A stretch of DNA of 64,000 bases from Rhabdaerophilum sp. SD176 (lineage in GTDB: Bacteria; Pseudomonadota; Alphaproteobacteria; Rhizobiales; Beijerinckiaceae): NCBI RefSeq assembly GCF_030143245.1, contig NZ_JARJNS010000006.1, positions 248,001-312,000 of the forward strand, given 5' to 3'. Position 1 is the stretch's first letter; every line of letters starts with the position of its first letter. The notes below the pieces were generated by a model, which saw only the letters and a program-made list of their open reading frames with translations, was not told the DNA's origin and did no database searches. The position numbers and the translations under genes were made by a program. Of the stretch, positions 2,431 to 59,615 are shown piece by piece.

Positions 2431-2523
2431 TGCATGCAATCCATGCTTCGTCAGGAGCCTTCCGCTGAACCAGGCTCCAGAACGAATGCAGATTGGCATT
2501 CCGATTGCATGCAGTTTGGCATG
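2431..2523. promoter_or_regulatory. Candidate GntR operator cluster before the ABC operon
   Basis: Three related words occur between the GntR and ABC starts. TGCATGCAATCCATGC is at 2431-2446, ATGCAGATTGGCAT at 2486-2499 and ATGCAGTTTGGCAT at 2509-2522. The last two differ at one base and are 23 bp apart, about two helical turns. The last one lies inside ATTGCATGCAGTTTGGCATG (2504-2523), which matches the copy at 1176-1194. Confidence 0.5.
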
Positions 2524-44465: not shown

Positions 44466-44481
44466 AGCAAGGCCCATGCCC
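44466..44481 (-). promoter_or_regulatory. Sigma-54 promoter before the GT4/transferase unit
   Basis: Minus strand reads GGGCATGGGCCTTGCT: GG-N10-GC spacing with the -12 box TTGCT intact and one mismatch in TGGCAT. The predicted start would lie about 12 bp on, leaving about 27 nt to ATG 44428. Confidence 0.7.
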
Positions 44482-44621
44482 GACGCCACAGCCGCGATTC
44501 TTTCGAATTCGCAACGGAAACCACCCCGCTGCGCGTTGCTTTTTGCAATTCCGGATTTGCGAACTGGGCGTGTCCGCCCCGGAAACCGGTGGAAATCGCC
44601 AGATTGCAGGCCGATCGCGGC

Positions 44622-44637
44622 TGGCACCCGCCTTGCT
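44622..44637 (+). promoter_or_regulatory. Sigma-54 promoter before the STAS/export operon
   Basis: TGGCACCCGCCTTGCT matches the sigma-54 consensus TGGCAC-N5-TTGCT at every fixed position, with GG-N10-GC spacing. It lies 47 bp before ATG 44685 and back to back with the minus-strand site at 44466-44481. Confidence 0.82.
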
Positions 44638-44684
44638 GACTTCCATCCCGGATCGGCCGCGATGGCCGGAAGAAGGAGCAGACC

Positions 44685-44972
44685 ATGACCCGTAGATTGC
44701 GCATTCAAGACGACCTCGATGCCGGCACGATGACGACCGTGCGCGTGCTGTTCGAGGAACTTGCCGCTGCCGAGGAAGACATCGCGCTGGATGTCTCCAA
44801 TGTCAGCTTCATCGATTCCAGCGGCGTGGGCGGGCTCGTCTTCCTGTACAAGCGGCTCAATGCCCGTGGCCGCCGGCTGGAAATCGCCGGTCTGAGCGGC
44901 CAGCCGCGCCAGCTTCTTGACCATCTCAAGCTGACGCCGATCCTCGCGCCGGATCTGGCCCGGAGCGCGTGA
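44685..44972 (+). CDS. STAS-domain anti-anti-sigma-like protein, 95 aa
   Basis: A single STAS domain: EDIALDVSNVSFIDSSGVGGLVFLYKRLNARGRRLEIAGLS. Ser45/Ser46 in IDSSGVGG is at the phosphorylation position of SpoIIAA/RsbV-like proteins. In partner-switching systems the unphosphorylated form captures an RsbW-like kinase and a SpoIIE/PP2C phosphatase resets it. A protein with HATPase and SpoIIE domains is encoded in the same locus (49164-50669), making a local pair likely. GGAG/AAGGAG precedes the ATG by about seven bases. It is the first gene of a five-gene export operon, with a stop overlapping the next start. Confidence 0.88.
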   Translation: MTRRLRIQDDLDAGTMTTVRVLFEELAAAEEDIALDVSNVSFIDSSGVGGLVFLYKRLNARGRRLEIAGLSGQPRQLLDHLKLTPILAPDLARSA

Positions 44973-45289
44973 TGCCGCGCCTGGCCATTCTCGTCCTGAT
45001 CGCCGGACTGGCCGGCGGCTGTGCCACCTGGCCCGAACCCGGGACGGGCGGCTTTGCCGAACGGCGCCCGGTCGAGGATCCGGGGCTGCAGGGTCTGACC
45101 ATGCGGTACGAAACCCTGCGCCAGCGCGGCGCCGAACGCTGGGCGGCTGGCCTCGCGGACGAAGCCCGGCTGCTCCTGATCCGCGCGCAGCGCAACCACC
45201 AGGCTGGTCTTGCCGATGATCTCGCCGAAGACCAGCGTCGCCTTGCCCGTGTGCTCGATACGATCGAGCCCCATCTGCGGAGCCCCTGA
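44972..45289 (+). CDS. Small lipoprotein of the export operon, 105 aa
   Basis: The signal segment MPRLAILVLIAGLAGGCATWPEP has a near-lipobox (AGGC), so lipid attachment at Cys is likely. The rest is helical and charged (RYETLRQRGAERWAAGLADEARLLLIRAQRNHQAGLADDLAEDQRRLARVLDTIEPHL), without a recognised domain. ATG 44972 overlaps the STAS stop (TGATG). Two bases then separate it from the OPX gene, so a periplasmic helper of polysaccharide export is the natural guess; nothing stronger can be said. Confidence 0.7.
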   Translation: MPRLAILVLIAGLAGGCATWPEPGTGGFAERRPVEDPGLQGLTMRYETLRQRGAERWAAGLADEARLLLIRAQRNHQAGLADDLAEDQRRLARVLDTIEPHLRSP

Positions 45290-45291
45290 CC

Positions 45292-47424
45292 ATGAATCCC
45301 CTCGCAGCCTTCCATCCGGCCCGGTTTGCCGGCCTGATCCTCGCGTTCATGGCCTTCCTCGCCGTCATGGCGACAACGGCTCTTGCTGCCACGGCCGGCG
45401 ACGCGCTGCGGATCGGGGATACGGTCGCGCTGCGCGTGCCGGGCGAAGCTGCTCTCTCACAGGATTTCAAGATCGACCGGCAGGGCCAGATCATCCTGCC
45501 GGAAGTCGGTGCGGTCATCGTGGCCGGGCTCACAACCCGGGAAGCCGAAGGCGCGATCCGGACCAGTCTTTCGCGCGTCTACCGGGATCTCGACCGGCTG
45601 ACATTGGCGCTCAAGGACAGGCGCCTGCTCGTGACCGTGCTTGGCTATGTCAAGAATCCCGGGCCGGTGGAGATTCCCGGCGATGCCTCGGTGCAGATGG
45701 CGATCGCGGCCGCCGGCGGCCTGAACCAGGGCGCGCAGCTCGACCGGTTCCGGCTGCAGCGGAAGGATCGCGAGATCACCTTCGACTACAAGAAGTATCT
45801 CGATACCGGTGATCCCGGCCTCCTGCCTGCACTGGAGCCGCTCGATACGTTGTTCGTGCCTGCTTCGCCGCGGACCGGCAATGTCCAGATCGATTTCGAC
45901 GGGCGAACCCTCGCGGAAGCCGGAGATGGTGGCGAGGACCGCTCCTCCATCAAGGTGTTCGGCGAGGTCAACAAGCCCGGTATCTTCGCATTCAAGCCCG
46001 GCTCGAACGCGATCGACATGATCATGCGCGCCGGCGGCGTGACCCGCTATGCCTCGGTCGAACAGATCCGCATCATCGCCAAGGGCCAGCCCACGATCTT
46101 CAACCTCCAGACTTTCCTCGACAGCGGAAAGGCGCATCTCTTGCCCGATCTCGCCGAGGGTGCGACCATCTTCGTGCCGAAGCAGCTCGAAGAGATCCGC
46201 TCCGGCAAGAACACGGTCTATGTCATGGGTGAGGTGGCGAAACCGGGCGCGTTCGACTCGAAGCCGGGCGCCGGGTTCATCGATATCCTTGCCAATGCCG
46301 GCGGCCCGACGCGCTTCGCCGATACACGCCAGATCCGTCTCATCCGGGCCGATGGCACGGTGGCCCTCGTGGACCTGCCTCTCTTCACCGAGGGCAAGGG
46401 CGGTGCCCTGCCGCCCGTCGGGGCCGGCGACGCGATCTTCGTGCCCGAGAAGACCGATACCAAGGAACCCTCCTGGCTCAAGATCGCGCCTGACCGCGCT
46501 GTCAAGCTCATGGGCGCTGTGACACGACCGGGCCGGTTCGAATGGTCGGACGAGATGTCGCTGCTCGACCTGCTGGCGCAGGCCGGCGGACCGACACACA
46601 AGGCCGATCTCGCGCGGATCCAGATCCGGCTCGGCGAGAATGACAAGGGCAAGCCCGTCCTGTTCGACATGACGGCCTATCTGAATGGCCAGAACACCGC
46701 CCTGCCCCGCCTTCGGGCCGGGGCCGTGATCATGGTGCCGGACCTCCCGTCCAGCCCCGTCGACATGAAGGGCCAATGGGTGCAGCAGGCGCCGGAAGCC
46801 TCGATCTACGTGATGGGACAGGTCGGCTCGCCCGGACGCTACGCCTTCAACACGCAGATGAACTTCCTCGACATCATCGCGGCGGCAAATGGCCCGACCA
46901 GTGCGGCCGACCTGAGGAATGTCCGCGTCTCGCACCGCCACGGCAAGGGTTCGCGGATCAGCAAGGTCAATCTTGCGCGGTATTTCGAGACCGGGGATGA
47001 CAAGCTCCTGCCGCGCGTCAAGCCCGGAGATGTCATCTTCATTCCGGACCGGAACAAGGAATGGCTCGACGACCCGAAGGAGCGGACGGTCCGCGTCATC
47101 GGCGCCGTCGGCAAGCCGGGCCGCTACCGCTTCGCCGATGACATGACCCTGCTCGACCTGCTGGCCGAAGCCGGCGGTCCGACCAGCGACGCACTCCAGA
47201 CAAAGATCGTCGTGATCAACATCACGGCCCAGACCGAAGGCGCGCGCCTCTTCGACCTCGTCGGCTTTGCCAAGTCGGGCGACATTTCGCGGCTGCCGGC
47301 GGTGCGGGCCGGAGACACGGTCTACGTGCCGAACATGGCGCAGAGTGACTGGAAAATCTTCATGGACGGCGTCCGCGACGTGATCCCGCTCGTCTCGCTC
47401 GTCGCCCTGCTGGGAGCCCTGTAA
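45292..47424 (+). CDS. Large OPX polysaccharide export protein with many SLBB-type repeats, 710 aa
   Basis: An N-terminal hydrophobic signal (about residues 12-33) precedes a Poly_export domain (GDALRIGDTVALRVPGEAALSQDFKIDRQGQIILPEVGAVIVAGLTTREAEGAI). Then comes a chain of SLBB-like units marked by repeats such as VLGYVKNPGPVEIP, FGEVNKPGIFAFKPG, VMGEVAKPGAFDSKPGAG, LMGAVTRPGRFEWSD, VMGQVGSPGRYAF and VIGAVGKPGRYRFADD. It is roughly twice the size of Wza. The C-terminal hydrophobic stretch (VIPLVSLVALLGAL) may anchor it. It should form the outer-membrane/periplasmic channel for the exopolysaccharide. Its stop overlaps the next start (TAATG). Confidence 0.9.
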   Translation: MNPLAAFHPARFAGLILAFMAFLAVMATTALAATAGDALRIGDTVALRVPGEAALSQDFKIDRQGQIILPEVGAVIVAGLTTREAEGAIRTSLSRVYRDLDRLTLALKDRRLLVTVLGYVKNPGPVEIPGDASVQMAIAAAGGLNQGAQLDRFRLQRKDREITFDYKKYLDTGDPGLLPALEPLDTLFVPASPRTGNVQIDFDGRTLAEAGDGGEDRSSIKVFGEVNKPGIFAFKPGSNAIDMIMRAGGVTRYASVEQIRIIAKGQPTIFNLQTFLDSGKAHLLPDLAEGATIFVPKQLEEIRSGKNTVYVMGEVAKPGAFDSKPGAGFIDILANAGGPTRFADTRQIRLIRADGTVALVDLPLFTEGKGGALPPVGAGDAIFVPEKTDTKEPSWLKIAPDRAVKLMGAVTRPGRFEWSDEMSLLDLLAQAGGPTHKADLARIQIRLGENDKGKPVLFDMTAYLNGQNTALPRLRAGAVIMVPDLPSSPVDMKGQWVQQAPEASIYVMGQVGSPGRYAFNTQMNFLDIIAAANGPTSAADLRNVRVSHRHGKGSRISKVNLARYFETGDDKLLPRVKPGDVIFIPDRNKEWLDDPKERTVRVIGAVGKPGRYRFADDMTLLDLLAEAGGPTSDALQTKIVVINITAQTEGARLFDLVGFAKSGDISRLPAVRAGDTVYVPNMAQSDWKIFMDGVRDVIPLVSLVALLGAL

Positions 47425-48134
47425 TGGCCAAATCCGAAACCAGCGGCATCACCGCCAATCTCCATACCCTGCTCGAGCGGATGCGCCATGCCACGTTCAC
47501 GCAAGGCGCGCGGGTCATCGCCCTCACTGCCCCGCATGCCAATGCCGGGAACTCGCTGATCGCGGCGCTGTTCGCTCGCCGTCTGCATGAAACCGGCCTC
47601 AAGGTGCTGCTCGTGGATGCGTCGCTTCCCCCTGACCCCCGGACGAGCCCGGGGCGCTGGTCGCCGGGCGATGGCGGCGGGCTGCATCTCGTTTCCCGCG
47701 AGGCTGAAGGGCCAGACCGGCTCTGGATCGCCATCCATCCGGATGATGCCGGCCGGTTCAACGATCCGGCGCGCCTGCGGTCCCTGTTCGAGACCGAACT
47801 CTCGGCCTACGATGCCGTGATTGTCGATTGCGCTCCGGCCCGGATCGGCTCCGGCGCGGCGATCGAGGCCATGACCATTGCGGCGATTTCCGGGGCAACG
47901 CTGGTGATCGGCAAGGCCAACCGCACTTTCGGCCATGAGCGGGATGCCGCCTTGGCACTCCTGGCCGAATGCCGGGCACCCCTGGCCGGGTTCGTCATCA
48001 ACGACATTATCGCCCCAAGCCTCGGCTCGGAGATTGCCCGCGAGGTCCGGCGGTTCCGGCGCTTGCGTCCCCGCTGGGCGGACCGTCTCGCCGCCTGGGC
48101 TGAGTCCCTTCCGCTCTTCAACCTTCCGGCCTGA
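47424..48134 (+). CDS. CpsD/BY-kinase-like P-loop protein lacking the Walker A lysine, 236 aa
   Basis: The fold is that of MinD/CpsD-type ATPases: VIALTAPHANAGNSLIAALFARRL (31-54), VLLVDASLPPD (about 61-71, Walker A' position) and AVIVDCAPARIGSG (Walker B position). At the P-loop the canonical GEGKS is N-A-G-N-S, with Asn43 where the catalytic lysine should be. The tyrosine cluster of BY-kinases is absent from the tail (SLPLFNLPA). It therefore may bind but not hydrolyse nucleotide, or may be a structural regulator of the export machine. It sits between the OPX gene and a glycosyltransferase, where an autokinase would normally be encoded. Confidence 0.85.
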   Translation: MAKSETSGITANLHTLLERMRHATFTQGARVIALTAPHANAGNSLIAALFARRLHETGLKVLLVDASLPPDPRTSPGRWSPGDGGGLHLVSREAEGPDRLWIAIHPDDAGRFNDPARLRSLFETELSAYDAVIVDCAPARIGSGAAIEAMTIAAISGATLVIGKANRTFGHERDAALALLAECRAPLAGFVINDIIAPSLGSEIAREVRRFRRLRPRWADRLAAWAESLPLFNLPA

Positions 48135-48135
48135 C

Positions 48136-49158
48136 ATGACCCGCATCCTGCTCTTTCTCGACAGTTCCGGCCTCGGCGGGATCGAATCCCATATCGCGAC
48201 CCTGGCCGAGGCGCTGCCCGAGGCCGGTTTTCCGGCGGAAGTCGTGTTCTGGCGGCAATATCCCGGCAATGCGTTCGAGGATCGCCTTCGTGCGGCCGGA
48301 TTGCCCTTCTCGAATCTGGGCGGGCGGATCGACCGCCTCCTCGGGCGGCTGCGCAGCCGCGAGCCCCTGCTGCTCCATAGCCATGGCTACAAGGCCGGGA
48401 TTCTGGGCAGACTGGCGGCCCGGATCGTCCGGGTTCCGGTCGTTTCCACCTACCATTCCGGCGAGACCGGCCCGTTCCCCGTCAACCTGTATCAGGCGCT
48501 CGACGCCTGGACCGGCTGGATGGCGGAAGGCCTGTCTGTCTCCTCGGCCATCGCCAACCGCCTGCCTTTCCGAACCGCGATTGTGCCGAACTTCCTGCGC
48601 TTTCCTCCTCTGGAAGCCGCCAAGCGGCGCCAGCCGCAGATCGGCTTTGTCGGGCGGCTCTCGCCCGAGAAGGCGCCGGACCGCTTCATCGATCTCGCCT
48701 TGCGGATGAAGGGCGCGGCCAGTTTCCATGTCTTCGGCGATGGCGCCATGCGCGCCGAACTGACGGAACGGGCCGGATCCAGCGTGATCTGGCATGGGAT
48801 GGTCCGCGACCCCGGTGCCATCTGGCCGGGGCTTGACCTGCTGGTTATCCCCTCGCGGGCGGAGGGATTGCCCATGGCGGCGCTGGAAGCGTTGGCACGG
48901 GGCATTCCGGTGGTCTCGACCCCGGTCGGCGCCATGGCCAGCGTGATCGGGAATGGCGCGGCGGGCTGGCTGGTCGGGCCGGGGTCCGAGGCACAGATCC
49001 TCAATGGCCTTTCACAGGGCGTTCAGGACTGGCTGGCCCTGCCGCCGGCTGAACGCGATGCCCTCCGCATCCGTGCCCATCGTCATGGCGAAACGGAATT
49101 CGGGCTGGAAAAGGGCCTCGCGCGGGTGCTGGAAGCCTATCGGCGGGCCGGGGCCTGA
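48136..49158 (+). CDS. GT4-family glycosyltransferase, 340 aa
   Basis: GT-B enzyme starting ILLFLDSSGLGGIESHIATLAEALPEAGF. Further motifs are LLLHSHGYKAGILGRLAARI and the donor domain IGFVGRLSPEKAPDRFIDLAL, followed by VIWHGMVRDPGAIWPGLDLLVIPSRAEGLPMAALEALARGIPVVSTPVG with the EGLPMAALEA E-x7-E motif. It is the last gene of the STAS operon, starting one base after the CpsD-like stop. Codons upstream in the same frame lie inside that gene and are not used. It is convergent with the phosphatase gene, 5 bp away. Confidence 0.91.
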   Translation: MTRILLFLDSSGLGGIESHIATLAEALPEAGFPAEVVFWRQYPGNAFEDRLRAAGLPFSNLGGRIDRLLGRLRSREPLLLHSHGYKAGILGRLAARIVRVPVVSTYHSGETGPFPVNLYQALDAWTGWMAEGLSVSSAIANRLPFRTAIVPNFLRFPPLEAAKRRQPQIGFVGRLSPEKAPDRFIDLALRMKGAASFHVFGDGAMRAELTERAGSSVIWHGMVRDPGAIWPGLDLLVIPSRAEGLPMAALEALARGIPVVSTPVGAMASVIGNGAAGWLVGPGSEAQILNGLSQGVQDWLALPPAERDALRIRAHRHGETEFGLEKGLARVLEAYRRAGA

Positions 49159-49163
49159 CGCGG

Positions 49164-50669
49164 TCAGGCCGCGGCCTCCAGCATCACCAATGTCCAGTCA
49201 TCTTCCGGTGCAAGCGAAAGCGTCGCGCGGATCTCGGCTTCAAGCCGGTCGCCGGCCGCTTCCAGCGGCTGGTCACGCACGGCAAGCATTGCCTCGGCGA
49301 GCCATGCCGGCACTTCACGACCGACCTGTTCCGACCGGGCGTCCAGACCGTCCGTCGGCAGATATAGGCGTTGCCCCGGCGCGAGCCGCACTTGTGCGAC
49401 AGGGTATTCGACCTCCTCGAACAGGCCGAGGAAAGGCCCGTCCACCTCGACCATGGTGATGCCCTGGGCATCACCCATGAAGGGCCGAGGATGCCCGGCT
49501 GCCGACAGGGCAACGAGGCCATCCTCGTCGATATCCGCCACGACCAGCGAGAAGAAGGCCTCCGGGAGAAGCAGGTCTTTCGACATCGCCCGTGACAGGG
49601 CGGAGAGGAACATGTTGCAGGGAAGATGCGGCATGGCGCCATGGACGCCCGCCATCGCTGCGCGGAACCGCATCGCGGCGAGCTGCGCAGCCAAACCATG
49701 GCCCATGACATCGGCCAGAACAAGCCGGTGGCCGCCGGGCCGCCGGAACAGGCACAGGAAATCACCACGGCCGAACCCCGCCCGCGCATGCCGTGAAACG
49801 ACCCGCAGGGGACCGATCCGCTCGGGCAGGTCATCGTGGCCTTCCCGGTCAATGGCCGCGCTGAAGAATCGGAACATGCGCGCATTGTTCCGGGCGTTCC
49901 GAGTCAGCATTGCGGCCACGGCATTCCGGAGCGCATCGGAACTGACCGGCTTGCTCAGGACCTGTTCGACACCGGCATTGAAGACCATCCGCAGCCGGTC
50001 CGGATCGCGCTCGCCCGTCAGCACGAGGACAGGCACGGGCGGGCGATCCGCCTTCCATTCCAGTGCATCGATCAGGGCGCTGCCGTCGTGACCCTCGAGG
50101 TGGAGGTCGGTGACGATGCCATCGATCGACTGGCTGGCGGCAATGCCGATCGCAGCATCGAAGCCCGGTGCCTTGAGGATGTCGTACTGGCCCTTGAGCA
50201 TGGCGGCATAGGTTTCGAGCAGGATGGGGCTGTCCTCGACGATCAGGATGGTCGGCCTGTCCCCCGCGAGGCGCTTCGTTGCACGCAGGCGGTTCGGCAG
50301 GCCCGGCGTGTAGGACAACCCGTCGACCATGGACTGGATGATCGCGAGGCCACGGCCGCTTTCCGCGAAGAGATGGTCCTGCTTGACCAGCGAGCGGGCA
50401 CAGGCCCCATCGAAATCATCGAAGCCGCCACCATCATCCTCGATATCGATCGACAGCGAGGCCCCGTGAAGGCTGAGCCGGACGGTCACCGTCTCGGGCG
50501 CCGGATCCGCGTGCAGGATCGTGTTGGCACCGATCTCCGACAGGGTCAGGAGAATCGCCTGCCGGACCGGATCGGCCGGGCATAACGTGTCCAGCCGGGC
50601 CGAGAGGTCCTTGCGGAGCGCGCTGAGGGCCAGCAGATCAGGCGGGATGGAGGCCTCGAACAGGATCAT
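49164..50669 (-). CDS. HATPase-receiver-SpoIIE phosphatase protein, 501 aa
   Basis: Three modules in one chain. Residues 10-130 are an RsbW/SpoIIAB-like ATPase (TLSEIGANTILHAD with Asn49; EDDGGGFDD; AESGRGLAI). Residues 138-260 are a receiver domain (LIVEDSPILLE, phospho-Asp188 in IVTDLHLEGHDG, VLSKPVS). Residues 285-501 are a PP2C/SpoIIE phosphatase (GRGDFLCLFRRPGGHRLVLADVMGHGLAA, LPTDGLDARSEQ, DDWTLVML). It could both phosphorylate and dephosphorylate the STAS protein under control of receiver phosphorylation. The start ATG 50669 follows GAGG by five bases and lies 14 bp after the GT2 stop. Kinase and phosphatase in one chain with an input domain is unusual for RsbW/RsbU systems. Confidence 0.9.
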   Translation of the reverse strand: MILFEASIPPDLLALSALRKDLSARLDTLCPADPVRQAILLTLSEIGANTILHADPAPETVTVRLSLHGASLSIDIEDDGGGFDDFDGACARSLVKQDHLFAESGRGLAIIQSMVDGLSYTPGLPNRLRATKRLAGDRPTILIVEDSPILLETYAAMLKGQYDILKAPGFDAAIGIAASQSIDGIVTDLHLEGHDGSALIDALEWKADRPPVPVLVLTGERDPDRLRMVFNAGVEQVLSKPVSSDALRNAVAAMLTRNARNNARMFRFFSAAIDREGHDDLPERIGPLRVVSRHARAGFGRGDFLCLFRRPGGHRLVLADVMGHGLAAQLAAMRFRAAMAGVHGAMPHLPCNMFLSALSRAMSKDLLLPEAFFSLVVADIDEDGLVALSAAGHPRPFMGDAQGITMVEVDGPFLGLFEEVEYPVAQVRLAPGQRLYLPTDGLDARSEQVGREVPAWLAEAMLAVRDQPLEAAGDRLEAEIRATLSLAPEDDWTLVMLEAAA

Positions 50670-50683
50670 TGTTGCCTCGACCG

Positions 50684-51634
50684 TCAGATCCGCGCCGGGG
50701 ACGGCTGGAGACCGCGCACCAGATCGGCAGCGGCAGCGCGCAATCCCGGACGGGAAGGTGTGGCACAGCAGGCCCGCAATTCGGCCATGGCAGCCGAGAG
50801 ATGCCGCTCTTCCTTCCGCGCGATCTCGGCCCGGGCTCGGGCGAGGCGCGCATCGACCTTGCGCAGGGCTTGGCGGATCGCCTTGTCCTGGCGGCCGCGA
50901 TAACGCCCGGCAATCGCCTCGATGGCGCCAAGCCGGTCCTGCAGGCGCGAGGTCAGGCTCCCCGGGCGCATAAGGTAATGGGTCATGATCATCGTGCTTG
51001 CCGCGACAGGGGCCATGGCAGCGAGGCGCAGCCAGAGATCCCAGTCTTCGGCCGAGGCGAGATCCGTTGCGAAGCCGTTCGCATTCTGCAACAGCGATTT
51101 GCGAACCGCGACAGTCGATGTCCCGACAAGGTTGTGCCCGAGCAGCATCGCCTCGGCCTCCTCGAGGGCGAAGAAATGCGTCGGCGGCTGGTTGCGGAAG
51201 CCCGGGCGCCAATAGTCGAAGCAGGTGCCGCGATCCTCGCCCGAGGGGCCGATATGGCGGTAATCGGTGAAGCTCATCCCGATTTCCGGGTTCCTTTCCA
51301 GATGCTCCATCTGCACGCGCAGTTTGCCGCGCAGCCAGACATCATCGGAATCGAGGAAGGCGATAATCGGGGCTGAAGCCTCTGAAATACCGAGGTTTCT
51401 GGCGCCCGCAGGCCCGAGGGATTCTGTATGCAGCACGCGAAGCTGCGGCAGTTCCCGGGCCATGGCCGACAGCCATTCGCGGGAGCCGTCGGTCGAGCCG
51501 TCATCGATGACGAGGATCTCGACGGCATCCAGCTGCTGGAGCCCGATCGAATGGATCGCGGCCGGAAGCGTATCGAGATTGTTGCGGTTCGGAATGATGA
51601 CGCTGACGCGCGCATCGAAAAGGGGGCGGGACAT
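50684..51634 (-). CDS. GT2-family glycosyltransferase, 316 aa
   Basis: GT-A fold domain at residues about 8-220: VSVIIPNRNNLDTLPAAIHSIGLQQ, ILVIDDGSTDGS, GPAGARNLGISEASAPIIAFLDSDDVW with the metal-binding DSDD, and SAEDWDLWLRLA as the acceptor/base motif. The C-terminal 90 residues are Arg/Ala-rich helices. GGAG six bases before ATG 51634 sets the start. It is transcribed with the phosphatase gene. It is divergent from the GT4 gene at 51722; the 87-bp gap has a strong sigma-54 site on the plus strand and a weaker one on the minus strand. Confidence 0.9.
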   Translation of the reverse strand: MSRPLFDARVSVIIPNRNNLDTLPAAIHSIGLQQLDAVEILVIDDGSTDGSREWLSAMARELPQLRVLHTESLGPAGARNLGISEASAPIIAFLDSDDVWLRGKLRVQMEHLERNPEIGMSFTDYRHIGPSGEDRGTCFDYWRPGFRNQPPTHFFALEEAEAMLLGHNLVGTSTVAVRKSLLQNANGFATDLASAEDWDLWLRLAAMAPVAASTMIMTHYLMRPGSLTSRLQDRLGAIEAIAGRYRGRQDKAIRQALRKVDARLARARAEIARKEERHLSAAMAELRACCATPSRPGLRAAAADLVRGLQPSPARI

Positions 51635-51671
51635 CGCAAACTCCACTGCTTGGGGCGGGTCTCGGCCCGCA

Positions 51672-51687
51672 TGGCATCTCCCTTGCT
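51672..51687 (+). promoter_or_regulatory. Sigma-54 promoter before the GT4-flippase-polymerase operon
   Basis: TGGCATCTCCCTTGCT keeps the -24 TGGCA and -12 TTGCT boxes with exact GG-N10-GC spacing, 35 bp before ATG 51722. Confidence 0.8.
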
Positions 51688-51699
51688 GATTTCGTGCCG
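51684..51699 (-). promoter_or_regulatory. Weak sigma-54-like site before the GT2-phosphatase unit
   Basis: Minus strand CGGCACGAAATCAGCA has the GG-N10-GC spacing and GGCACG, but the TT of the -12 box is CA. It overlaps the plus-strand site by four bases, so the two promoters would exclude each other. Confidence 0.3.
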
Positions 51700-51721
51700 C
51701 AACCGAATGTCCGGAGTTCCC

Positions 51722-52894: not shown

Positions 52895-54291
52895 CATCCC
52901 CGATCTCCGCCGTCCTGCTCTATGCCGTCAGCGTTGCCTTCGGCAAAGGCCTGGTGCTGTTCACGCTGCCCTTCCTGACGCGGACCCTCCCGCCGGAGGA
53001 TTTCATCCGCCTCGACATGGCGGCTGCCCTGATCGAACCGATCGGGCTGATCGGCTGCCTGGCCATTGCCGACACCCTGTTCCGTTTCGCGGCAGGCAGT
53101 GCCGAGGAACGGGCGCGGCTGGCCCGCATGCTGGCTGGCCTTGCCGCCGCGCTCGGCCTGCCGCTGGCCCTCTTCTGCCAGATCGTGATCGTGCCAATCG
53201 TGGCGCCATGGCCGAACATGCCGGGCGAGACCGCCCTGCGGCTCGCCCTGCTTTCGGCCTGTCTCGGCGCTTTCATCGAACTGCCCCTCGCCTATTGGCG
53301 GCTGATGGGGCAGCCGATGCGCTTCACCGCCTTCGTGGTCGGACGGTCGCTGGCGCAGGCCGCGTTGCTGATCGGCGGGCTGCATGCCGGGTTCGGCGTC
53401 GATGGCGTATTGATCGGCAATGCCGTGATTGACGGCCTCGTCATCTTGCTGCTCTGGCGGCTGATGCCCGGCCGGGGCCTGCCCCGGTTCGAGATCGCCC
53501 TCCTGCCGGCGCAGCTGCGCTATGCCGGACCTGTGATCGGCGGCGGGCTCGCCATGTTCGCGCTGGGCTCGCTGGACCGCTGGTTCCTGGCCGGTGCGGT
53601 CCAGCCGGCTGCCCTCGCGCATTACGCCCTCGCGACCAAGCTTGCGATGGCGCTGGCGCTTGCGATCCAGCCCTTCGGATTGTGGTGGTATCCGCGCCGT
53701 TTCGCCATACTGGCCGGCCCGGAAGGCCCTGCCGAAACCGCCCGGTTCTGGCTGGTCGGGCTCGCGCTGCTCTGCCTCGGCGCGCTCGCCGTCACCGGGG
53801 CAGCCCGCCTTTTCGTGCTGGGGCTGTTCCCTCCGGCCTATCACGGCGCAATGGTCTTCCTGCCATGGCTCATCCTGCTGATCCTGCTCAATGAGCTCGC
53901 TTCGCTCTCGAACGGTCCCGCCTATGCGCGGGCGGCGGGCTGGCGGGTGCTCGCGGTGAACATGGCCGCAGCTCTGGTTGCCACCCTGCTCTATGCGGTG
54001 CTGATCCCGCGATTGGGGCTGGCCGGAGCGATCCTCGCCACAGCGGCGGGGCAGAGCTGCCGGCTCGTCCTGTTCTGGTCGGATCGCGGAACGGCCGGCT
54101 GCATCCCCTACCCTTTGCCACTTGGCCTGGCGATGATCGCCGCCACTTTGGTTTCGATGGTGATGCTGGCCGATGGCGCAAACCATGACTGGGCGTGGCC
54201 GCTGGTGACCCTGGCCCTCCTTGGCCTCGTTCTCGCCCGCGCGGTGCTGCCGATGCGGGGAAGCCCGTTGCTCCCGGCGGGGCGAGGCTAG
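52891..54291 (+). CDS. Wzx-type polysaccharide flippase, 466 aa
   Basis: A polytopic protein with about 12-14 hydrophobic helices, starting SAVLLYAVSVAFGKGLVLFTLPFLTRTLPPEDF, the conserved N-terminus of the polysaccharide transporter (MOP/Wzx) family. MFALGSLDRWFLAGAVQPAALAHYALATKLAMALALAIQPF matches the second-half Wzx motif. It should flip the lipid-linked repeat unit to the periplasm for polymerisation by the next gene product. ATG 52891 overlaps the glycosyltransferase stop (ATGA). A 547-codon frame on the other strand is an antisense shadow. Confidence 0.88.
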   Translation: MTSPISAVLLYAVSVAFGKGLVLFTLPFLTRTLPPEDFIRLDMAAALIEPIGLIGCLAIADTLFRFAAGSAEERARLARMLAGLAAALGLPLALFCQIVIVPIVAPWPNMPGETALRLALLSACLGAFIELPLAYWRLMGQPMRFTAFVVGRSLAQAALLIGGLHAGFGVDGVLIGNAVIDGLVILLLWRLMPGRGLPRFEIALLPAQLRYAGPVIGGGLAMFALGSLDRWFLAGAVQPAALAHYALATKLAMALALAIQPFGLWWYPRRFAILAGPEGPAETARFWLVGLALLCLGALAVTGAARLFVLGLFPPAYHGAMVFLPWLILLILLNELASLSNGPAYARAAGWRVLAVNMAAALVATLLYAVLIPRLGLAGAILATAAGQSCRLVLFWSDRGTAGCIPYPLPLGLAMIAATLVSMVMLADGANHDWAWPLVTLALLGLVLARAVLPMRGSPLLPAGRG

Positions 54292-54292
54292 G

Positions 54293-55729
54293 ATGCGTCC
54301 GGTCTCACATCGCATTCCCGTCGAGGGACGTCAGGACAGTTCGGCCTTCGCCCTGGCCATCTGCCTGCTGGTCTTCGTCATCGGCACGGCGAGCGGCTTC
54401 CCGCTCGGCGTGGCCCTTGTGGCGACGGCCATCGGGCTGGCGCCCTTCGCCATCCGCTTCTGCATGGGCCATCCATTCCTGCTCTGCCTCGGCTTCGTCG
54501 CCTTCTCCTTCTTCAGGCTGCACGAGGTGTTTCCAGTATTGCTGCCGCTGCGGATCCCGCAGTTGCTCGCCATCCCGACCCTCGGGGTCATCGCGTGGCA
54601 TGCCCTGGGCTCCAAGGCACTGAAGCCGTTCCTCTCGCGCGAACTGGTCTGGTTCGGCGCCTTTTTTCTGCTGGTCACGATCGGCGTACCCTTCGCCACC
54701 GACCGCCCGACGGCGATCGCCTACTGGACCGCGACCTATGTCAAGATCGGCATCATGACGCTCGCCATCGCCTGGCTTGTGCGCAAGCCGGGGGATTTCC
54801 TGCTTTTCATGCGGGTGATGGTGCTGGCGGGTGTGGCCGTAGCAGCGGTGGCCCTGCAGAACAAGGCGCAGGGGATCGGGCTTGTCGAAGGAACGCGCGT
54901 CACGATCGGGCGCGATATCGGCTCCGTCCTCGGCGATCCGAACGATCTCTCGCTGGTGCTGCTCTTTCCGCTCAGCTTTGCCGTCGGCATGACTGTTTCG
55001 CCAACCGGGCGCCTCGACCGGACTATCGGTCTCCTCGGGTCTGCGGCCATCATCGCCGCCATCATCGCCACGCAGAGCCGGGGCGGCCTGCTCGGCATGG
55101 TGGCGGTTTTCGGGACGGTGGGCTGGCGCCTGGTGAAGAACAAGATGTTGCTGGTCACGATCGGGCTGATCGGGCTGGCGATCCTGTTTGCGGCCGCCGG
55201 CATTTCCTCGCGTGCCTCTGGCGGCGCGCATGAAGAGGGGATCGACGAGAGTGCGATGGGCCGGATCTACGCCTGGGAAGCCGCGATCAAGATGGCCACG
55301 CAGCGGCCGCTGACCGGTGTCGGGCTCGACAATTTCGTTCCCAATTATTTCTTCTATTCGGACCATTGGGACGGCATGAACCATGCGGTGCACTCGACCT
55401 GGTTCGGCGTGCTCGGCGAAACCGGCCTGCCCGGCCTGATCGTCTTCGTGACCATGATCGCCGTCACGGCGCGCAGCCTGCTCCGCACCCTGCCCCGTAT
55501 CGCGCCGGGCCCGGAGACAGCTCCTGTACGGGCCGCAGGGTTGGGCCTGCTCTCGGGCGTTGCCGGGTTCTGCCTTTCCGGCACCTTCCTGACGCAGGGC
55601 TTTACCTGGCCGGTCTATGTGCTTGTCGCATTGAGCGCAGCCCTGTCGCGTTCTGCGAATCCGGTTCGGGATTTGCAAATCCGCATTCTCGCGACTCCGA
55701 TAAAAAATCATTCAAAATCTGATACTTAA
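54293..55729 (+). CDS. Wzy / O-antigen-ligase-type polymerase, 478 aa
   Basis: About 11-12 membrane helices with one large periplasmic loop. The Wzy_C motif region is SRGGLLGMVAVFGTVGWRLV, followed by GRIYAWEAAIKMATQRPLTGVGLDNFVPNYFFYS and NHAVHSTWFGVLGETGLPGLIVFV; H and R residues in the loop are the usual catalytic candidates. It would join repeat units into polymer or ligate them. It starts one base after the flippase stop (TAGG-ATG). The 3' end is AT-richer (AAAAAATCATTCAAAATC), unlike the rest of the gene. Confidence 0.88.
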   Translation: MRPVSHRIPVEGRQDSSAFALAICLLVFVIGTASGFPLGVALVATAIGLAPFAIRFCMGHPFLLCLGFVAFSFFRLHEVFPVLLPLRIPQLLAIPTLGVIAWHALGSKALKPFLSRELVWFGAFFLLVTIGVPFATDRPTAIAYWTATYVKIGIMTLAIAWLVRKPGDFLLFMRVMVLAGVAVAAVALQNKAQGIGLVEGTRVTIGRDIGSVLGDPNDLSLVLLFPLSFAVGMTVSPTGRLDRTIGLLGSAAIIAAIIATQSRGGLLGMVAVFGTVGWRLVKNKMLLVTIGLIGLAILFAAAGISSRASGGAHEEGIDESAMGRIYAWEAAIKMATQRPLTGVGLDNFVPNYFFYSDHWDGMNHAVHSTWFGVLGETGLPGLIVFVTMIAVTARSLLRTLPRIAPGPETAPVRAAGLGLLSGVAGFCLSGTFLTQGFTWPVYVLVALSAALSRSANPVRDLQIRILATPIKNHSKSDT

Positions 55730-55743
55730 TCAATCAAGCCGTC

Positions 55744-55759
55744 TGGCAAGCGCCATGCA
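55744..55759 (+). promoter_or_regulatory. Sigma-54-like promoter before glmS
   Basis: TGGCAAGCGCCATGCA keeps GG-N10-GC and TGGCA, with TTGCA changed to ATGCA and one -24 box mismatch. It lies 48 bp before ATG 55807, at the same distance as the STAS-operon site. Confidence 0.5.
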
Positions 55760-55806
55760 GGCTCTCCGGCAGGCCCCTCGGGGTGTCACAAATGCTGGAG
55801 AAAGCC

Positions 55807-57615
55807 ATGTGCGGGATTTTTGCTCGAATTGCCAATGAACCGGTGGCCCCGGCCCTGATCGAAGGGCTGAGGCGCCTTGAATATCGCGGATACGATTCAG
55901 CCGGCATTGCCACGATCGAGCAGGGCGGGATCGAGCGCCGTTGCGCTGTCGGCAAGGTCGATGCGCTGGAGGCCGTTGTCCGTTCGGGCCCGCCGGCCGG
56001 GACAGTCGGCATCGCCCATACCCGCTGGGCCACCCATGGCTCGCCGAGCGAGCGCAATGCCCATCCGCATATCGCGCCGGGCCTTGCAATCGCCCATAAC
56101 GGCATCATCGAGAACCACCGTGAGTTGCGTCATGCCCTCAGCGATCGCGGCGCGCGGTTCCGCTCCGAGACCGACAGCGAAGTCATCCCCTGGCTGATGC
56201 ACCAGCATATGGCTGGCGGGGCGAGCGCAAAGGATGCGATGCACCGGGTCGGCGAGGAATTGCACGGCGCCTTTGCGATCGCCGCAATTTCCGAAAACGA
56301 ACCGGATGTCCTGCGTGCCTACCGCCGCGGTTCGCCGCTGGCCGTCGGCTTCGGCAAGGGCGGCGGCGTGCTCGCTTCGGATCCGCAGGCCCTGGCAGGT
56401 TATGCCAGCGAGGCGATGATCCTCGAGGACGGGGACAGCGCCGAGATCACCCGTGACGGCGTCGCGCTGTTCAACCGGGCCGGTGAACGTGTCCAGCGCC
56501 AGACCCTGGCGGTCGACCCGTCGGTTTTCGCCTGCGACGACAATCCCTATGCGCATCACATGCTGCGCGAGATCCACGAACAGCCGGACGTGATCGCCCG
56601 CATTCTCGGCCAGTATCGGGTGCCGTCCGATGTGCTTGCGATGGTTCCGGTGGATTTCCGCCGGGTCTCGCGGATCACGCTCGTGGCATGCGGGACGTCC
56701 TATTATGCGGCGGCGCTGGCCCGCCGCTGGTTCCAGGAATTTGCCCGGGTGCCGGCCGAAGTCGCCATCGCATCGGAATTCCGTTACGAGGCCTTCGCGC
56801 CGCCACTGCCGGGCGAGCTGGCCATCGTCATTTCCCAGTCCGGCGAGACCGCCGACACGATCGGGGCGATGGAAGTGATGCGGGCCCGGGGCATCCCGGT
56901 GATCGCGCTGGTCAACCAGATCGGCAGCACAATCGCCCGCGAGGCGGATGGCACGATCCCGCTGCTTGCCGGCCCGGAAATCGGGGTTGCCTCGACCAAG
57001 GCCTTCTCGGCCCAGCTGACCGTGCTTGCCATGCTGGCCCTCGCGGCCGGCCAGCGGCGCAACCAGCCCGGGATCGGGCAGTTCCATGCCCGCCTTCAGA
57101 AGCTCGGCGACATGGTCACCGCCGCCCTTCACAACGAGCCGGCCGTGATCGCGGTGGCCGAGCGCATCCACAATGCGCACAGCATGATCTATGTCGGGCG
57201 CGGCTCGCTGTTCCCGGTTGCAATGGAAGGTGCGCTGAAACTCAAGGAAATCAGCTATATCCATGCCGAGGGTTTTGCAGCCGGCGAGCTGAAGCACGGG
57301 CCGATCGCGCTGGTCGATCCGCAGACGCCGATCGTCGCGCTGGTCGCCTCGGGCTCGCTCTTCGAGAAGAGCGCGTCCAATGTCCGCGAGATTGCCGCCC
57401 GGAATGGCCGGATCGTGCTTGTGGGTGACCGTGCATCCCTGCTCTCGCTGTCGGATGTCTCGACGCATTCATTGACCGTGCCGCAGGGTTGCGAGCTGCT
57501 GCAGCCGATCGTCTCGACCGTGCCGCTGCAACTCCTGGCCTATCATGTCGCCCGGTTGCGCGGCCTCGATGTCGACCGGCCTCGCAACCTCGCCAAGTCG
57601 GTGACCGTGGAATGA
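55807..57615 (+). CDS. glmS: Glutamine-fructose-6-phosphate aminotransferase, 602 aa
   Basis: The N-terminal Ntn glutaminase begins CGIFARIAN with Cys2 exposed after Met removal. It contains RLEYRGYDSAGIA, HTRWATHG and ETDSEVI. Two SIS domains follow, with the fructose-6-phosphate motifs CGTSYYAA, SQSGETADT, STKAFSAQL and the C-terminal DRPRNLAKSVTVE. It makes glucosamine-6-phosphate, the feeder of UDP-GlcNAc. The start is fixed by the required Cys2, with GGAG six bases upstream; eight extra in-frame codons upstream are not used. A copy inside a polysaccharide locus suggests dedicated hexosamine supply; whether a housekeeping glmS exists elsewhere is unseen. Confidence 0.96.
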   Translation: MCGIFARIANEPVAPALIEGLRRLEYRGYDSAGIATIEQGGIERRCAVGKVDALEAVVRSGPPAGTVGIAHTRWATHGSPSERNAHPHIAPGLAIAHNGIIENHRELRHALSDRGARFRSETDSEVIPWLMHQHMAGGASAKDAMHRVGEELHGAFAIAAISENEPDVLRAYRRGSPLAVGFGKGGGVLASDPQALAGYASEAMILEDGDSAEITRDGVALFNRAGERVQRQTLAVDPSVFACDDNPYAHHMLREIHEQPDVIARILGQYRVPSDVLAMVPVDFRRVSRITLVACGTSYYAAALARRWFQEFARVPAEVAIASEFRYEAFAPPLPGELAIVISQSGETADTIGAMEVMRARGIPVIALVNQIGSTIAREADGTIPLLAGPEIGVASTKAFSAQLTVLAMLALAAGQRRNQPGIGQFHARLQKLGDMVTAALHNEPAVIAVAERIHNAHSMIYVGRGSLFPVAMEGALKLKEISYIHAEGFAAGELKHGPIALVDPQTPIVALVASGSLFEKSASNVREIAARNGRIVLVGDRASLLSLSDVSTHSLTVPQGCELLQPIVSTVPLQLLAYHVARLRGLDVDRPRNLAKSVTVE

Positions 57616-58340
57616 CCGACGCCCTTTCGCTCCGCCAATGGGTGAAGGCGCGGCGGCATCCGGTCGCGCGGCTCCTCCATGCCGGCTTCCACACCCTGCG
57701 GGCCAGCCGCCTCCCGGTTGTTCCGGGCCTCCATGCCGCGCTCTACCGGGCGCGGCTGGGCGGGCTCGGCCTCTGGCAGGCCATGCGGCGCATGCTCTGG
57801 GATACGCCGCTCTTCCTCTCGCAGACGCGCAACCCTCCCTCCCGCCTCTATCTCTATGGCGGGATCCCGCTGATCCTGGGCCCTCTCCGGCTCACCATCG
57901 GGGAGGATTGCCGGATCTCGGGCCAGGTGACGCTGACGGCCCGCCCGTCCTCGCGCGAGCCGATGCTGGTCGTGGGAAAGAACTGCGATATCGGCTGGCA
58001 GACCACGATTGCCGTGGGCACAAGGGTCGTGCTGGGCGATAATGTCCGCATTGCCGGCCGGGCCTTTCTCGCCGGCTATCCCGGGCACCCGCTCGACGCG
58101 GAAGCCCGCGCCCTCGGCCTGCCCGACCAGGATTCGCAATGCGGTGACATCATCCTCGAGCCGGATGTGTGGCTTGCCACCGGCGTCACGGTGAATGCGG
58201 GCGTCCGTATCGGGCGCGGGACGGTGGTCGCCGCCGGTTCTGTCGTCACGAAAGACCTTCCCCCTCGTGTCCTTGCCGGCGGCGTGCCGGCACGGGTGAT
58301 CCGTTCCCTTGCAGATAAGGAGCCTGACCATGGCCCATGA
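57612..58340 (+). CDS. Left-handed beta-helix acyltransferase, 242 aa
   Basis: The C-terminal half (about 95-235) is a hexapeptide-repeat LbH domain with turns such as LTIGEDCRISGQVTLTARP, LVVGKNCDIGWQTTIAVGTRVVLGDNVRIAGRAFLAGYPG and DIILEPDVWLATGVTVNAGVRIGRGTVVAAGSVVTKDLPPRVLAGGVPARVI. This is the acetyl/acyltransferase ending. The N-terminal 90 residues are an unassigned helical region. It probably O-acetylates a sugar or polysaccharide. ATG 57612 overlaps the glmS stop (ATGA). The 3' end overlaps the next gene by 11 bases. Confidence 0.88.
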   Translation: MTDALSLRQWVKARRHPVARLLHAGFHTLRASRLPVVPGLHAALYRARLGGLGLWQAMRRMLWDTPLFLSQTRNPPSRLYLYGGIPLILGPLRLTIGEDCRISGQVTLTARPSSREPMLVVGKNCDIGWQTTIAVGTRVVLGDNVRIAGRAFLAGYPGHPLDAEARALGLPDQDSQCGDIILEPDVWLATGVTVNAGVRIGRGTVVAAGSVVTKDLPPRVLAGGVPARVIRSLADKEPDHGP

Positions 58341-59466
58341 CCTAATTGTTTTCGGCGAGGATTGGGGTGCCCATCCGAGTTCCACGCAGCACCTTATCCG
58401 CGCCATGCTGCCCGAGCGGCGCATCATCTGGGTGAATTCACTGGGCCTCCGCGCACCGCGTTTCTCCGCGAAGGATGGCGCCCGGCTGCTCCGGAAATTC
58501 GGGAGCCTCGTCGCCTCGACCTTCAGCCTTTCCGAGCCTTCGCCCGATGATGGCCTGAGGAAGCCGGATGTCATCATCTCGCCGGCGGCCATTCCCCTGC
58601 CCGGCAATCCGGCAGCGGCGGCCGTCACCCGCCGCATGGTGGCCCGCCAGGTGCGCCAGGCCATGGCCCGGCTCGGCATGAAGCGACCGGTTGTCTGGTC
58701 GTCGCTGCCAACCTCGGAACCACTGGTCGGGGCCTTCGACGAGCGGGCGCTGGTCTTCTATGCGGGCGATGATTTCAGCGCGCTCGACGGTGTCGACCAT
58801 GAGCCCGTGGTGGCGCTCGAACAGCGCCTCGTGGAAAAGGCGCAGCTCGTGCTTGCTGCCAGCCCGGAAATCGCCGGCCGGTTCCCGGAAAGCAAGACGA
58901 TGATCGTACCCCATGGCGTCGATATCGACCTTTTCGCCCGGCCCCAGCCCCGCCCGGATGACCTTCCGGACGGTCGTTCCATTGTCGGGTTCTATGGTTC
59001 GCTGTCGGGCTGGATCGATGTCGAGTTGCTGATCAAGGCAGCCAAGGCCCTGCCGGCCGTGAATTTCGTCTTCATCGGCCCGGTCAATACCGATACGCAA
59101 GGGCTGGAGGCCATTCCGAACGTCTTCCTGCTCGGCCCCAAGCCGCATGACCAGCTGCCGGCCTATGTCCAGCATTTCCGTGTTGCGATGCTGCCCTTCC
59201 GGGACACGCCGCAGATCCGGGCGTGCAATCCGCTGAAGCTGCGCGAGTACCTTGCCTCGGGCGTCGCGATCGCTTCGACGGATTTTCCCGCGCTGGAACC
59301 CTATCGCAGCCTGATCCATGTCGGGACCACGCCTGCTTCCTTCGTTGAGGCGATCCGCGAAGCCCTGAAGGATGGCGGACGCAAGACATTGCGGCAGCGC
59401 GCTGTGGCCAACGAGACCTGGCAACGGCGAGCCGAGGATCTCGCGGCGGTGATCGATCTGCTCTGA
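58330..59466 (+). CDS. Glycosyltransferase with GT-B fold (TuaH/GT1-4 like), 378 aa
   Basis: AHDLIVFGEDWGAHPSSTQHLIRAMLPERRIIWVNSLGLRAPR at the start and VFYAGDDFSALDGVDHEPVVALEQRLVEKAQLVLAASPEIAGRFPESKTMIVPHGVDIDLFARP in the middle match the family that begins with an HxxxxQ-type acceptor region. The donor domain has IVGFYGSLSGWIDVELLIKAAKALP and MLPFRDTPQIRACNPLKLREYLASGVAIASTDFPA. AAGGAG seven bases before ATG 58330 supports the start. It is the last gene of the glmS unit and is followed by a perfect 13-bp stem-loop. Confidence 0.9.
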   Translation: MAHDLIVFGEDWGAHPSSTQHLIRAMLPERRIIWVNSLGLRAPRFSAKDGARLLRKFGSLVASTFSLSEPSPDDGLRKPDVIISPAAIPLPGNPAAAAVTRRMVARQVRQAMARLGMKRPVVWSSLPTSEPLVGAFDERALVFYAGDDFSALDGVDHEPVVALEQRLVEKAQLVLAASPEIAGRFPESKTMIVPHGVDIDLFARPQPRPDDLPDGRSIVGFYGSLSGWIDVELLIKAAKALPAVNFVFIGPVNTDTQGLEAIPNVFLLGPKPHDQLPAYVQHFRVAMLPFRDTPQIRACNPLKLREYLASGVAIASTDFPALEPYRSLIHVGTTPASFVEAIREALKDGGRKTLRQRAVANETWQRRAEDLAAVIDLL

Positions 59467-59474
59467 CATTGCAA

Positions 59475-59506
59475 ATCGCGAGGCCGGCCTGTACCGGCCT
59501 CGCGAT
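59475..59506 (+). terminator. Perfect 13-bp stem-loop after the glmS unit
   Basis: ATCGCGAGGCCGG (59475-59487) and CCGGCCTCGCGAT (59494-59506) are exact complements around a 6-nt loop, 8 bp after the glycosyltransferase stop. No T-run follows, so it may stabilise the 3' end or work with Rho rather than act as a classical intrinsic terminator. Confidence 0.6.
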
Positions 59507-59599
59507 CCGGGCTTGCATTTCGCGAATTGAACGCTGCCATTCTTCCCCGTCACGTAGCGATTTCAATGCTTTACGACCCGAAAGAACAAAGCCGGGCTC

Positions 59600-59615
59600 T
59601 GGCATGAAACTTGGT
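59600..59615 (+). promoter_or_regulatory. Sigma-54-like promoter before the lipoprotein-Wzz unit
   Basis: TGGCATGAAACTTGGT has TGGCAT-N5-TTGGT: correct spacing with one change in the -12 box (GC to GG). It lies 34 bp before ATG 59649. Confidence 0.45.

Follow-up and report, generated by a model that had tools for sequence, protein, structure and literature searches.

A syp-like exopolysaccharide locus in Rhabdaerophilum sp. SD176, probably run as a single sigma-54 regulon

We have analyzed a stretch of 64,000 nucleotides from Rhabdaerophilum sp. SD176 (contig NZ_JARJNS010000006.1, positions 248,001 to 312,000), which we call the window and which has a GC content of 64%. It contains a group of exopolysaccharide genes resembling the syp (symbiosis polysaccharide) locus of Vibrio (Aliivibrio) fischeri, the squid symbiont whose colonisation biofilm seems to be controlled in a similar way. 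Probably, the region is a syp-like locus whose units together make up one sigma-54 regulon; we give this reading a probability of about 0.83. As far as sequence can tell, this reading is carried by the genes themselves, by the conservation of promoter sites and activator sites in related loci, and by the absence of both kinds of site where the activator is absent. The original prediction for this DNA, a whole polysaccharide regulon under RpoN with its own activator, is favoured by the sites found in congeners and in distant loci, by the co-occurrence of the activator with SypE and by a motif common to the upstream regions. Missing from it were the proteins of the partner switch, a hybrid kinase and the sites of the activator. 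Individual genomes and loci are referred to below by our own G and L numbers.

Sigma-54 sites in the locus

The sites are shown in Table 1, scored against TGGCAYN5TTGCW; the genes which give their names to the units are described in Table 2.

Table 1. Sigma-54 sites
44466..44481, (-), sigma-54 site of the GT4a unit, GGGCATGGGCCTTGCT, 1 mismatch
44622..44637, (+), sigma-54 site of the sypA-export unit, TGGCACCCGCCTTGCT, perfect
51672..51687, (+), sigma-54 site of the GT4c-Wzx-Wzy unit, TGGCATCTCCCTTGCT, perfect
51684..51699, (-), weak sigma-54-like site toward GT2, CGGCACGAAATCAGCA, GG-N10-GC, 3 mismatches, overlaps the 51672 site
55744..55759, (+), sigma-54 site of the glmS unit, TGGCAAGCGCCATGCA, 2 mismatches
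59600..59615, (+), sigma-54-like site of the lipoprotein-Wzz unit, TGGCATGAAACTTGGT, good -24 element, GG instead of GC at -12

All five sites that had been predicted are found where they were placed. They were said to lie 30–60 bp ahead of the unit starts: Their 3' ends are 33–47 bp from the starts at 44428 (-), 44685, 51722, 55807 and 59649. The first three (44466, 44622, 51672) keep TTGCT intact, as had been noted. The GG-N10-GC spacing, which had been attributed to all five, is present at 44466, 44622, 51672 and 55744, but 59600 has GG-N10-GG; this fifth site appears to combine a good -24 element with a deviant -12 element. The weak sixth site (51684) does have GG-N10-GC, but it has three mismatches and overlaps the 51672 site, though it is kept in all seven near genomes.

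The genome (3.96 Mb) contains one rpoN gene and ten matches to sigma-54 activator genes, seven of them strong. It has 11 perfect sites, and two of these are found in the 21.9-kb locus that we have scored, against 0.06 expected (P about 0.002). One-mismatch sites number one in the locus, four in positions 1–41500 of the window and five in a comparison sample of 400 kb, which was drawn as 20 stretches and covers 10% of the genome. A comparison of site density with the background had been suggested: Perfect sites are enriched, but two-mismatch sites are not, their density being 0.274 per kb in the locus and 0.288 in the 400-kb sample. A loose scan of the whole window gave 44 matches against 31.8 expected, a number reached in none of 100 shuffles; we have dropped the density of loose matches as evidence, since two-mismatch sites are at background. 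Neither score nor density therefore speaks for the weaker sites, which depend on conservation. By itself, the sequence supports two or three of the sites, the others need conservation.

Gene content

Table 2. Genes of the locus
41547..43349, (-), glycosyltransferase-2 fused to a bacterial sugar (initiating) transferase, Pfam Bac_transf 1.6e-51
43367..44428, (-), GT4 glycosyltransferase (GT4a)
44685..44972, (+), SypA-like STAS protein, STAS 4.1e-16, DSSG motif
44969..45289, (+), small protein in the SypB position, lipoprotein-like N terminus, without Pfam match
45292..47424, (+), SLBB/Poly_export exporter, SypC-like
47424..48134, (+), ATPase resembling tyrosine autokinases in the SypD position, NCBIfam 4e-07, below cut-off
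48073..49158 (start approximate), (+), GT4 glycosyltransferase (GT4b)
49164..50669, (-), SypE-like kinase - receiver - PP2C phosphatase
50684..51634, (-), GT2 glycosyltransferase, contains intragenic candidate activator sites
51722..52894, (+), GT4 glycosyltransferase (GT4c)
52891..54291, (+), Wzx-like flippase, Polysacc_synt 3.6e-05, below cut-off
54293..55729, (+), Wzy-like polymerase, Wzy_C 2.3e-21
55807..57615, (+), GlmS paralogue
57612..58340, (+), hexapeptide acyltransferase
58330..59466, (+), GT4 glycosyltransferase (GT4d)
59649..60416, (+), putative lipoprotein, from its sequence, without Pfam match
60413..61861, (+), Wzz-like chain-length protein
61865..63298, (-), LuxO/SypG-family sigma-54 activator (receiver - AAA+ with GAFTGA - Fis HTH)
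63412..64000, (-), 3' end of a PAS-HisKA-HATPase-REC hybrid kinase of 1037 aa, adjoins the activator gene and extends beyond the window

The stand-alone STAS protein has, in its sequence, a candidate phosphorylation serine, as expected of a SypA. The SypE-like protein has an N-terminal serine kinase, a central receiver and a C-terminal PP2C domain. Key residues of all three domains, which we take to be the catalytic ones, are invariant in the 10 aligned sequences (12 have been found). The tail of the hybrid kinase gives a weak Hpt match (0.0022, 18.6 bits), below the cut-off of 24.6. There are two full-length glmS genes in the genome, the one in the locus and another at G000:C11:227922-229745, which are 48% identical. 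The copy in the locus suggests an extra supply of amino sugars during polymer production.

We have also considered whether the locus is a PEP-CTERM/exosortase polysaccharide system with a PrsR-type activator. The exporter, Wzz and Wzy give moderate scores with PEP-CTERM-associated models, and the activator reaches 381 bits with the PEP-CTERM response regulator model. All these models are below their cut-offs, however, and the LuxO model reaches 585 bits. No exosortase was found in the genome by a PF09721 search, the control search being positive in 1 of 14 genomes. This interpretation is largely refuted and we have rejected it as very improbable.

Conservation of the promoters

The locus was fetched in 10 relatives. 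Congeners show full or almost full synteny, while the gene order differs in G160 and G095, where the locus is rearranged. We kept 80 of 113 candidate loci and used L058–L078 plus the G loci. Upstream of sypA, 15 loci were scored, those with a sypA-like gene in a polysaccharide setting. Near copies (G011, G013, G015) were excluded, as well as G006, whose contig ends before sypA, G061/L066, and L058–L060, L068, L069 and L071–L077, where no sypA was found in such a setting. In 13 of the 15 loci, sypA is preceded by a sigma-54 site having no more than one mismatch, and this site is perfect in 11, including the locus of the window; among those scored, G012 nearly duplicates the latter, and L070 and L078 both belong to Nisaea. 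Type strains of Nisaea, which can be cultured, have SypE and SypG in addition to a perfect site at sypA. Random 150-bp windows taken from the 13 loci score as well in only 0.3–1.6% of cases. The two failures are G089 and a Plesiomonas plasmid locus, and no activator gene is found in the 27 kb fetched of the latter.

The other promoters are also conserved to different degrees. The GT4c site is perfect in all seven near genomes. The GT4a site is retained in the five closest genomes, and G005 has a one-mismatch site at -48. Sites with 0–1 mismatches are found before GT4a in L062–L064, G160 and G108, and before GT4c in the same loci. For glmS, the TGGCA and TGCA elements are retained in the seven near genomes, and sites with 0–1 mismatches are found in L061, L062 and G108. 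Upstream of the lipoprotein gene, the five closest genomes all retain TGGCAYGAAACTTGG. The corresponding sequence is TGGCAC with TTTGA in G005 and G108, and TGGCACGGAACCTGCG in L078, so that here too a good -24 element goes with a deviant -12 element.

A homologous locus is present in plasmid p1 of Plesiomonas shigelloides (L170), with the STAS protein, the exporter and the SypE-type protein. It has neither a sigma-54 site at sypA nor, in the stretch, an exact activator motif.

In some more distant Alphaproteobacteria (L068, L069, L072, L073, L077), a TGGCACG-type sigma-54-like site ending in TTGCG is found shortly upstream of the SypE-type gene, hinting at a different wiring.

The activator and its candidate sites

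The activator had been described as an NtrC-type protein with GAFTGA. The GAFTGA motif is present, but the family is LuxO/SypG-like instead of generic NtrC. Its best match in PDB is LuxO, with 454 bits (the next family has 299). The best NCBIfam model is also LuxO (NF041946, equivalog), with 585 bits against a curated cut-off of 800, NtrC reaching 395. The activator is therefore a relative of LuxO, not LuxO proper. SypG and LuxO of V. fischeri are described as about 48% identical in the available part of PMC10162802, so that a LuxO-like score is compatible with SypG.

A full-length SypE-type protein is present in 12 of the 199 genomes searched: this genome, six congeners and five others. The activator (E 1e-100) is found in 11 of these 12, and in none of the 10 congeners without SypE. 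The exception is G089 (82% complete), which lacks the activator and has rpoN. The 26 kb of G089 contain neither a sigma-54 site with one mismatch or less nor an exact activator motif. A search of 398 genomes sampled from the phylum gave six SypE matches at E 1e-30 or better, counting this genome. Two Azospirillum plasmid activators that we inspected (about 52% identity) adjoin lactate-use genes, not polysaccharide genes.

The upstream regions have a motif in common, TYGCRNNNYGCRA, a relaxed form of the LuxO site TTGCAWWWTGCAA. Its copies are shown in Table 3.

Table 3. Candidate activator sites (no strand assigned)
44536..44548, TTGCTTTTTGCAA, 1 mismatch to TYGCRNNNYGCRA, common to the divergent GT4a and sypA promoters
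51079..51091, TCGCATTCTGCAA, intragenic, in GT2
51099..51111, TTGCGAACCGCGA, intragenic, in GT2
55646..55658, TCGCGTTCTGCGA, in the 3' end of wzy, with a 1-mismatch site next at 55666
59469..59481, TTGCAAATCGCGA
59513..59525, TTGCATTTCGCGA

The one-mismatch copy shared by the divergent promoters is 67 bp before the GT4a site and 86 bp before the sypA site. For glmS there are an exact copy at 98 bp and a one-mismatch copy at 78 bp from the sigma-54 site, and for the lipoprotein gene two exact copies, at 131 and 87 bp. The locus contains six exact copies, against 0.69 expected from the genome-wide count. This count is 124, against 110 for the reversed control, so most of the genomic exact matches are due to chance. 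The strict LuxO pattern has six matches in the window at two mismatches or less, four of them at the motif positions. An 8-bp palindrome, TTYGCRAA, was considered as the activator site and has been superseded by the 13-bp motif.

Ahead of the sypA site, the motif is found with one mismatch or less in 12 of the 15 loci. Seven of these 15 were scanned after the motif had been fixed (L061–L064, L067, L070, L078): Six have it within one mismatch, three of them exactly. Of the eight perfect sigma-54 sites located outside the window, none is preceded by an exact motif within 250 bp, and two are preceded by a one-mismatch match, no genome-wide search for paired sites having been made.

Several observations weigh against a single regulon. 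Besides the missing GC at 59600 and the background density of two-mismatch sites, some promoters fail in particular genomes. G095 has no site with three mismatches or less within 250 bp of GT4a or glmS, and L063 has no site with one mismatch or less before glmS. G006 has no such site before its lipoprotein gene, which closely follows GT4d. In L065/L066 there are motif matches near the lipoprotein gene, but the best sigma-54 site there has at least three mismatches. The motif has its own exceptions. L067 has a perfect sigma-54 site at sypA and no activator motif; G089 has two one-mismatch matches 42–47 bp ahead of sypA. The motif was partly derived from loci on which it was scored. An exact match at 62613, inside the activator gene, is probably due to chance. 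The same may be true of an exact match inside a GntR gene, 177 bp upstream of the unrelated perfect sigma-54 site at 2494. With three mismatches or less, the strict LuxO site has 29 matches against 20.9 expected, and 11 of 100 shuffles have as many. There is no enrichment of the SypG site of V. fischeri, TTCTCANNNTGM, which has 12 matches at one mismatch where 20 are expected; one of them, at 51078, overlaps a GT2 site. We take this lack of TTCTCANNNTGM as a feature of the regulator of each species, which does not define the type of locus.

Some of these points would fit a more restricted system, in which only the sypA and GT4c promoters, and perhaps GT4a, use sigma-54, while glmS and lipoprotein-Wzz are transcribed from sigma-70 promoters or through read-through; what looks like a site before them would be incidental. 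The sites at 55744 and 59600 are weak, weak sites are no denser than in the background, 59600 violates the GC rule, and G006 manages without a site before its lipoprotein gene. On the other hand, the glmS site is retained in every near genome and has good counterparts in L061, L062 and G108, TGGCAYGAAACTTGG is equally retained in the closest genomes, and both units have exact activator motifs upstream. We therefore consider the restricted system unlikely, and prefer a regulon covering the five units.

Candidate activator sites inside the GT2 gene

The GT4c promoter is a special case. Its exact motif copies fall within the GT2 gene, at distances of 573 and 593 bp upstream, with a one-mismatch copy at 90 bp. 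No GT2 was detected in L061 and L064, and there an exact copy is found 86 and 82 bp, respectively, from the corresponding sigma-54 site. Codon choice in GT2 seems to preserve the motif copies. When synonymous codons were shuffled in seven GT2 genes (near copies omitted), the 11 exact copies of the pool compared with a mean of 1.4 and a maximum of 6, and none of 5000 shuffles reached the observed count; since G000, G005 and G006 are related, the genes are less independent than the pooled figure suggests. Single genes reached their own count in 17 (G000), 39 (G005), 13 (G160), 202 (G108) and 868 (L063) of 5000 shuffles. G006 was only included in the pool and G089 was run singly. Among eleven other genes of the locus, an excess is only found in wzy (0.015), whose 3' end holds the glmS copy. 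No exact motif is present in the GT2 gene of L062 or in that of G089, which lacks the activator.

These copies might simply reflect the protein sequence (an LQNANG stretch) or local codon habits, with no enhancer at all. The residues encoded by the stretch are themselves conserved, its plain codon identity is not clearly higher than that of the whole gene, and GT4c already has its one-mismatch site at 90 bp. The gene of L062 does without the motif, and the single-gene tests for G108 and L063 are modest. This explanation is plausible but rather doubtful: It does not account for the pooled shuffles or for the lack of excess in most other genes, and G089 has CTG-GAG where the other genomes have TTG-CAA/CAG. 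We tentatively propose, as a possibility with somewhat less than even odds, that TYGCRNNNYGCRA is an activator code kept across Alphaproteobacteria, partly in the synonymous codons of GT2, where it could act as an intragenic enhancer over about 570–590 bp. The LuxO-type site might then be an old code of polysaccharide regulators, which Vibrio quorum sensing shares or took over.

Proposed mechanism

The hybrid kinase adjoining the activator gene probably phosphorylates the LuxO/SypG-type activator (61865-63298). The activator would bind TYGCRNNNYGCRA sites, which often come in pairs with a spacing of about two or four helical turns. It would drive sigma-54 RNA polymerase at the -24/-12 promoters of five units: GT4a/initiating-transferase, sypA-export, GT4c-Wzx-Wzy, glmS and lipoprotein-Wzz. 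In the case of the GT4c unit, the best candidate sites would be those inside the neighbouring GT2 gene. A post-transcriptional layer may be added by the SypE-like protein, which would phosphorylate or dephosphorylate the STAS protein SypA, restraining or releasing output as in V. fischeri. Activator binding, phosphotransfer, the SypE-SypA switch and the polymer and biofilm function are inferred.

Comparison with known systems

According to the available part of PMC5801674, the V. fischeri syp locus codes for an anti-sigma antagonist (A), B, an exporter (C), a chain-length protein (D), E, a sensor kinase (F) and a sigma-54 activator (G), together with glycosyltransferases, a flippase (K), a polymerase (L), a Wzz protein (O) and an initiating enzyme (R). 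The domains of SypE and the SypE-SypA model are given in sections of PMC3610818, and Ser56 of SypA in PMC4517449. Passages of these three papers describe the activation of the syp operons by SypG (PMC3610818; PMC5801674; PMC4517449).

The locus described here has in common with syp the STAS protein SypA, the exporter, the chain-length/ATPase protein, the kinase-REC-PP2C protein SypE, a hybrid kinase (its Hpt match being below the cut-off) and the sigma-54 activator, as well as the flippase, polymerase, Wzz protein and initiating enzyme. The order STAS, small protein, exporter, ATPase matches A-B-C-D. This likeness is one of component list and domains; the nearest gammaproteobacterial locus in our sequence comparison is that of the Plesiomonas plasmid. 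There are also differences from syp. The locus belongs to Hyphomicrobiales, has genes on both strands and includes a glmS paralogue. Its activator motif is LuxO-like, not TTCTCANNNTGM, and one set of activator sites is intragenic.

The scv/rbd/eps loci of other Vibrionaceae and aquatic bacteria are homologous polysaccharide loci under the sigma-54 response regulator ScvE, as reported in part of PMC8941931. That survey of scv/syp-type loci covers 28 genera, and Elstera and Terasakiella are the only Alphaproteobacteria named in the part available. In the same part, the V. parahaemolyticus locus has no SypE or SypF orthologues, unlike the present one. LuxO is the closest solved and the closest curated relative of the activator, and its site as given in the accessible text of PMC10162802, TTGCAWWWTGCAA, is a stricter form of our motif; in contrast to LuxO, the activator is below the LuxO cut-off (585 vs 800) and sits in a polysaccharide locus. 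Francke et al. (2011) found sigma-54 promoters to be generally associated with exopolysaccharide genes, judging from part of that paper (PMC3162934). Theirs is a tendency across genomes, while we describe a specific locus and a site code. Searches of open-licence PMC literature listed no paper reporting a locus of the syp type for Hyphomicrobiales; a partner-switch paper on Rhodobacter capsulatus (PMC3999984) was among the matches.

Sigma-54-controlled syp/scv loci are thus a known kind of system. What appears to be new is the form found in Alphaproteobacteria, with its conserved site code of the LuxO type, and a candidate enhancer embedded in codons. A model circuit for symbiosis and biofilm would be extended from Vibrio to freshwater Hyphomicrobiales, in its regulatory DNA as well as its genes. 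The site code should make the regulon predictable in genomes not yet studied, and the GT2 sites offer a clean test case for an enhancer fixed by codon choice. These results also bear on the relation between LuxO-type quorum regulators and polysaccharide regulators.

Other observations

An IS240-type transposase domain fragment is found at L151:5312-5920, shortly past the hybrid kinase gene, and the distribution of the locus within the genus is patchy.

Perfect sigma-54 sites were also noticed in two other places. One is at 2494-2509 (+) of the window, with a GntR/FCD regulator on one side and an ABC transporter operon on the other. The other (L179) has two perfect divergent sites about 200 bp apart, at G000:C21:185360 (-) and 185559 (+), with no activator motif within one mismatch.

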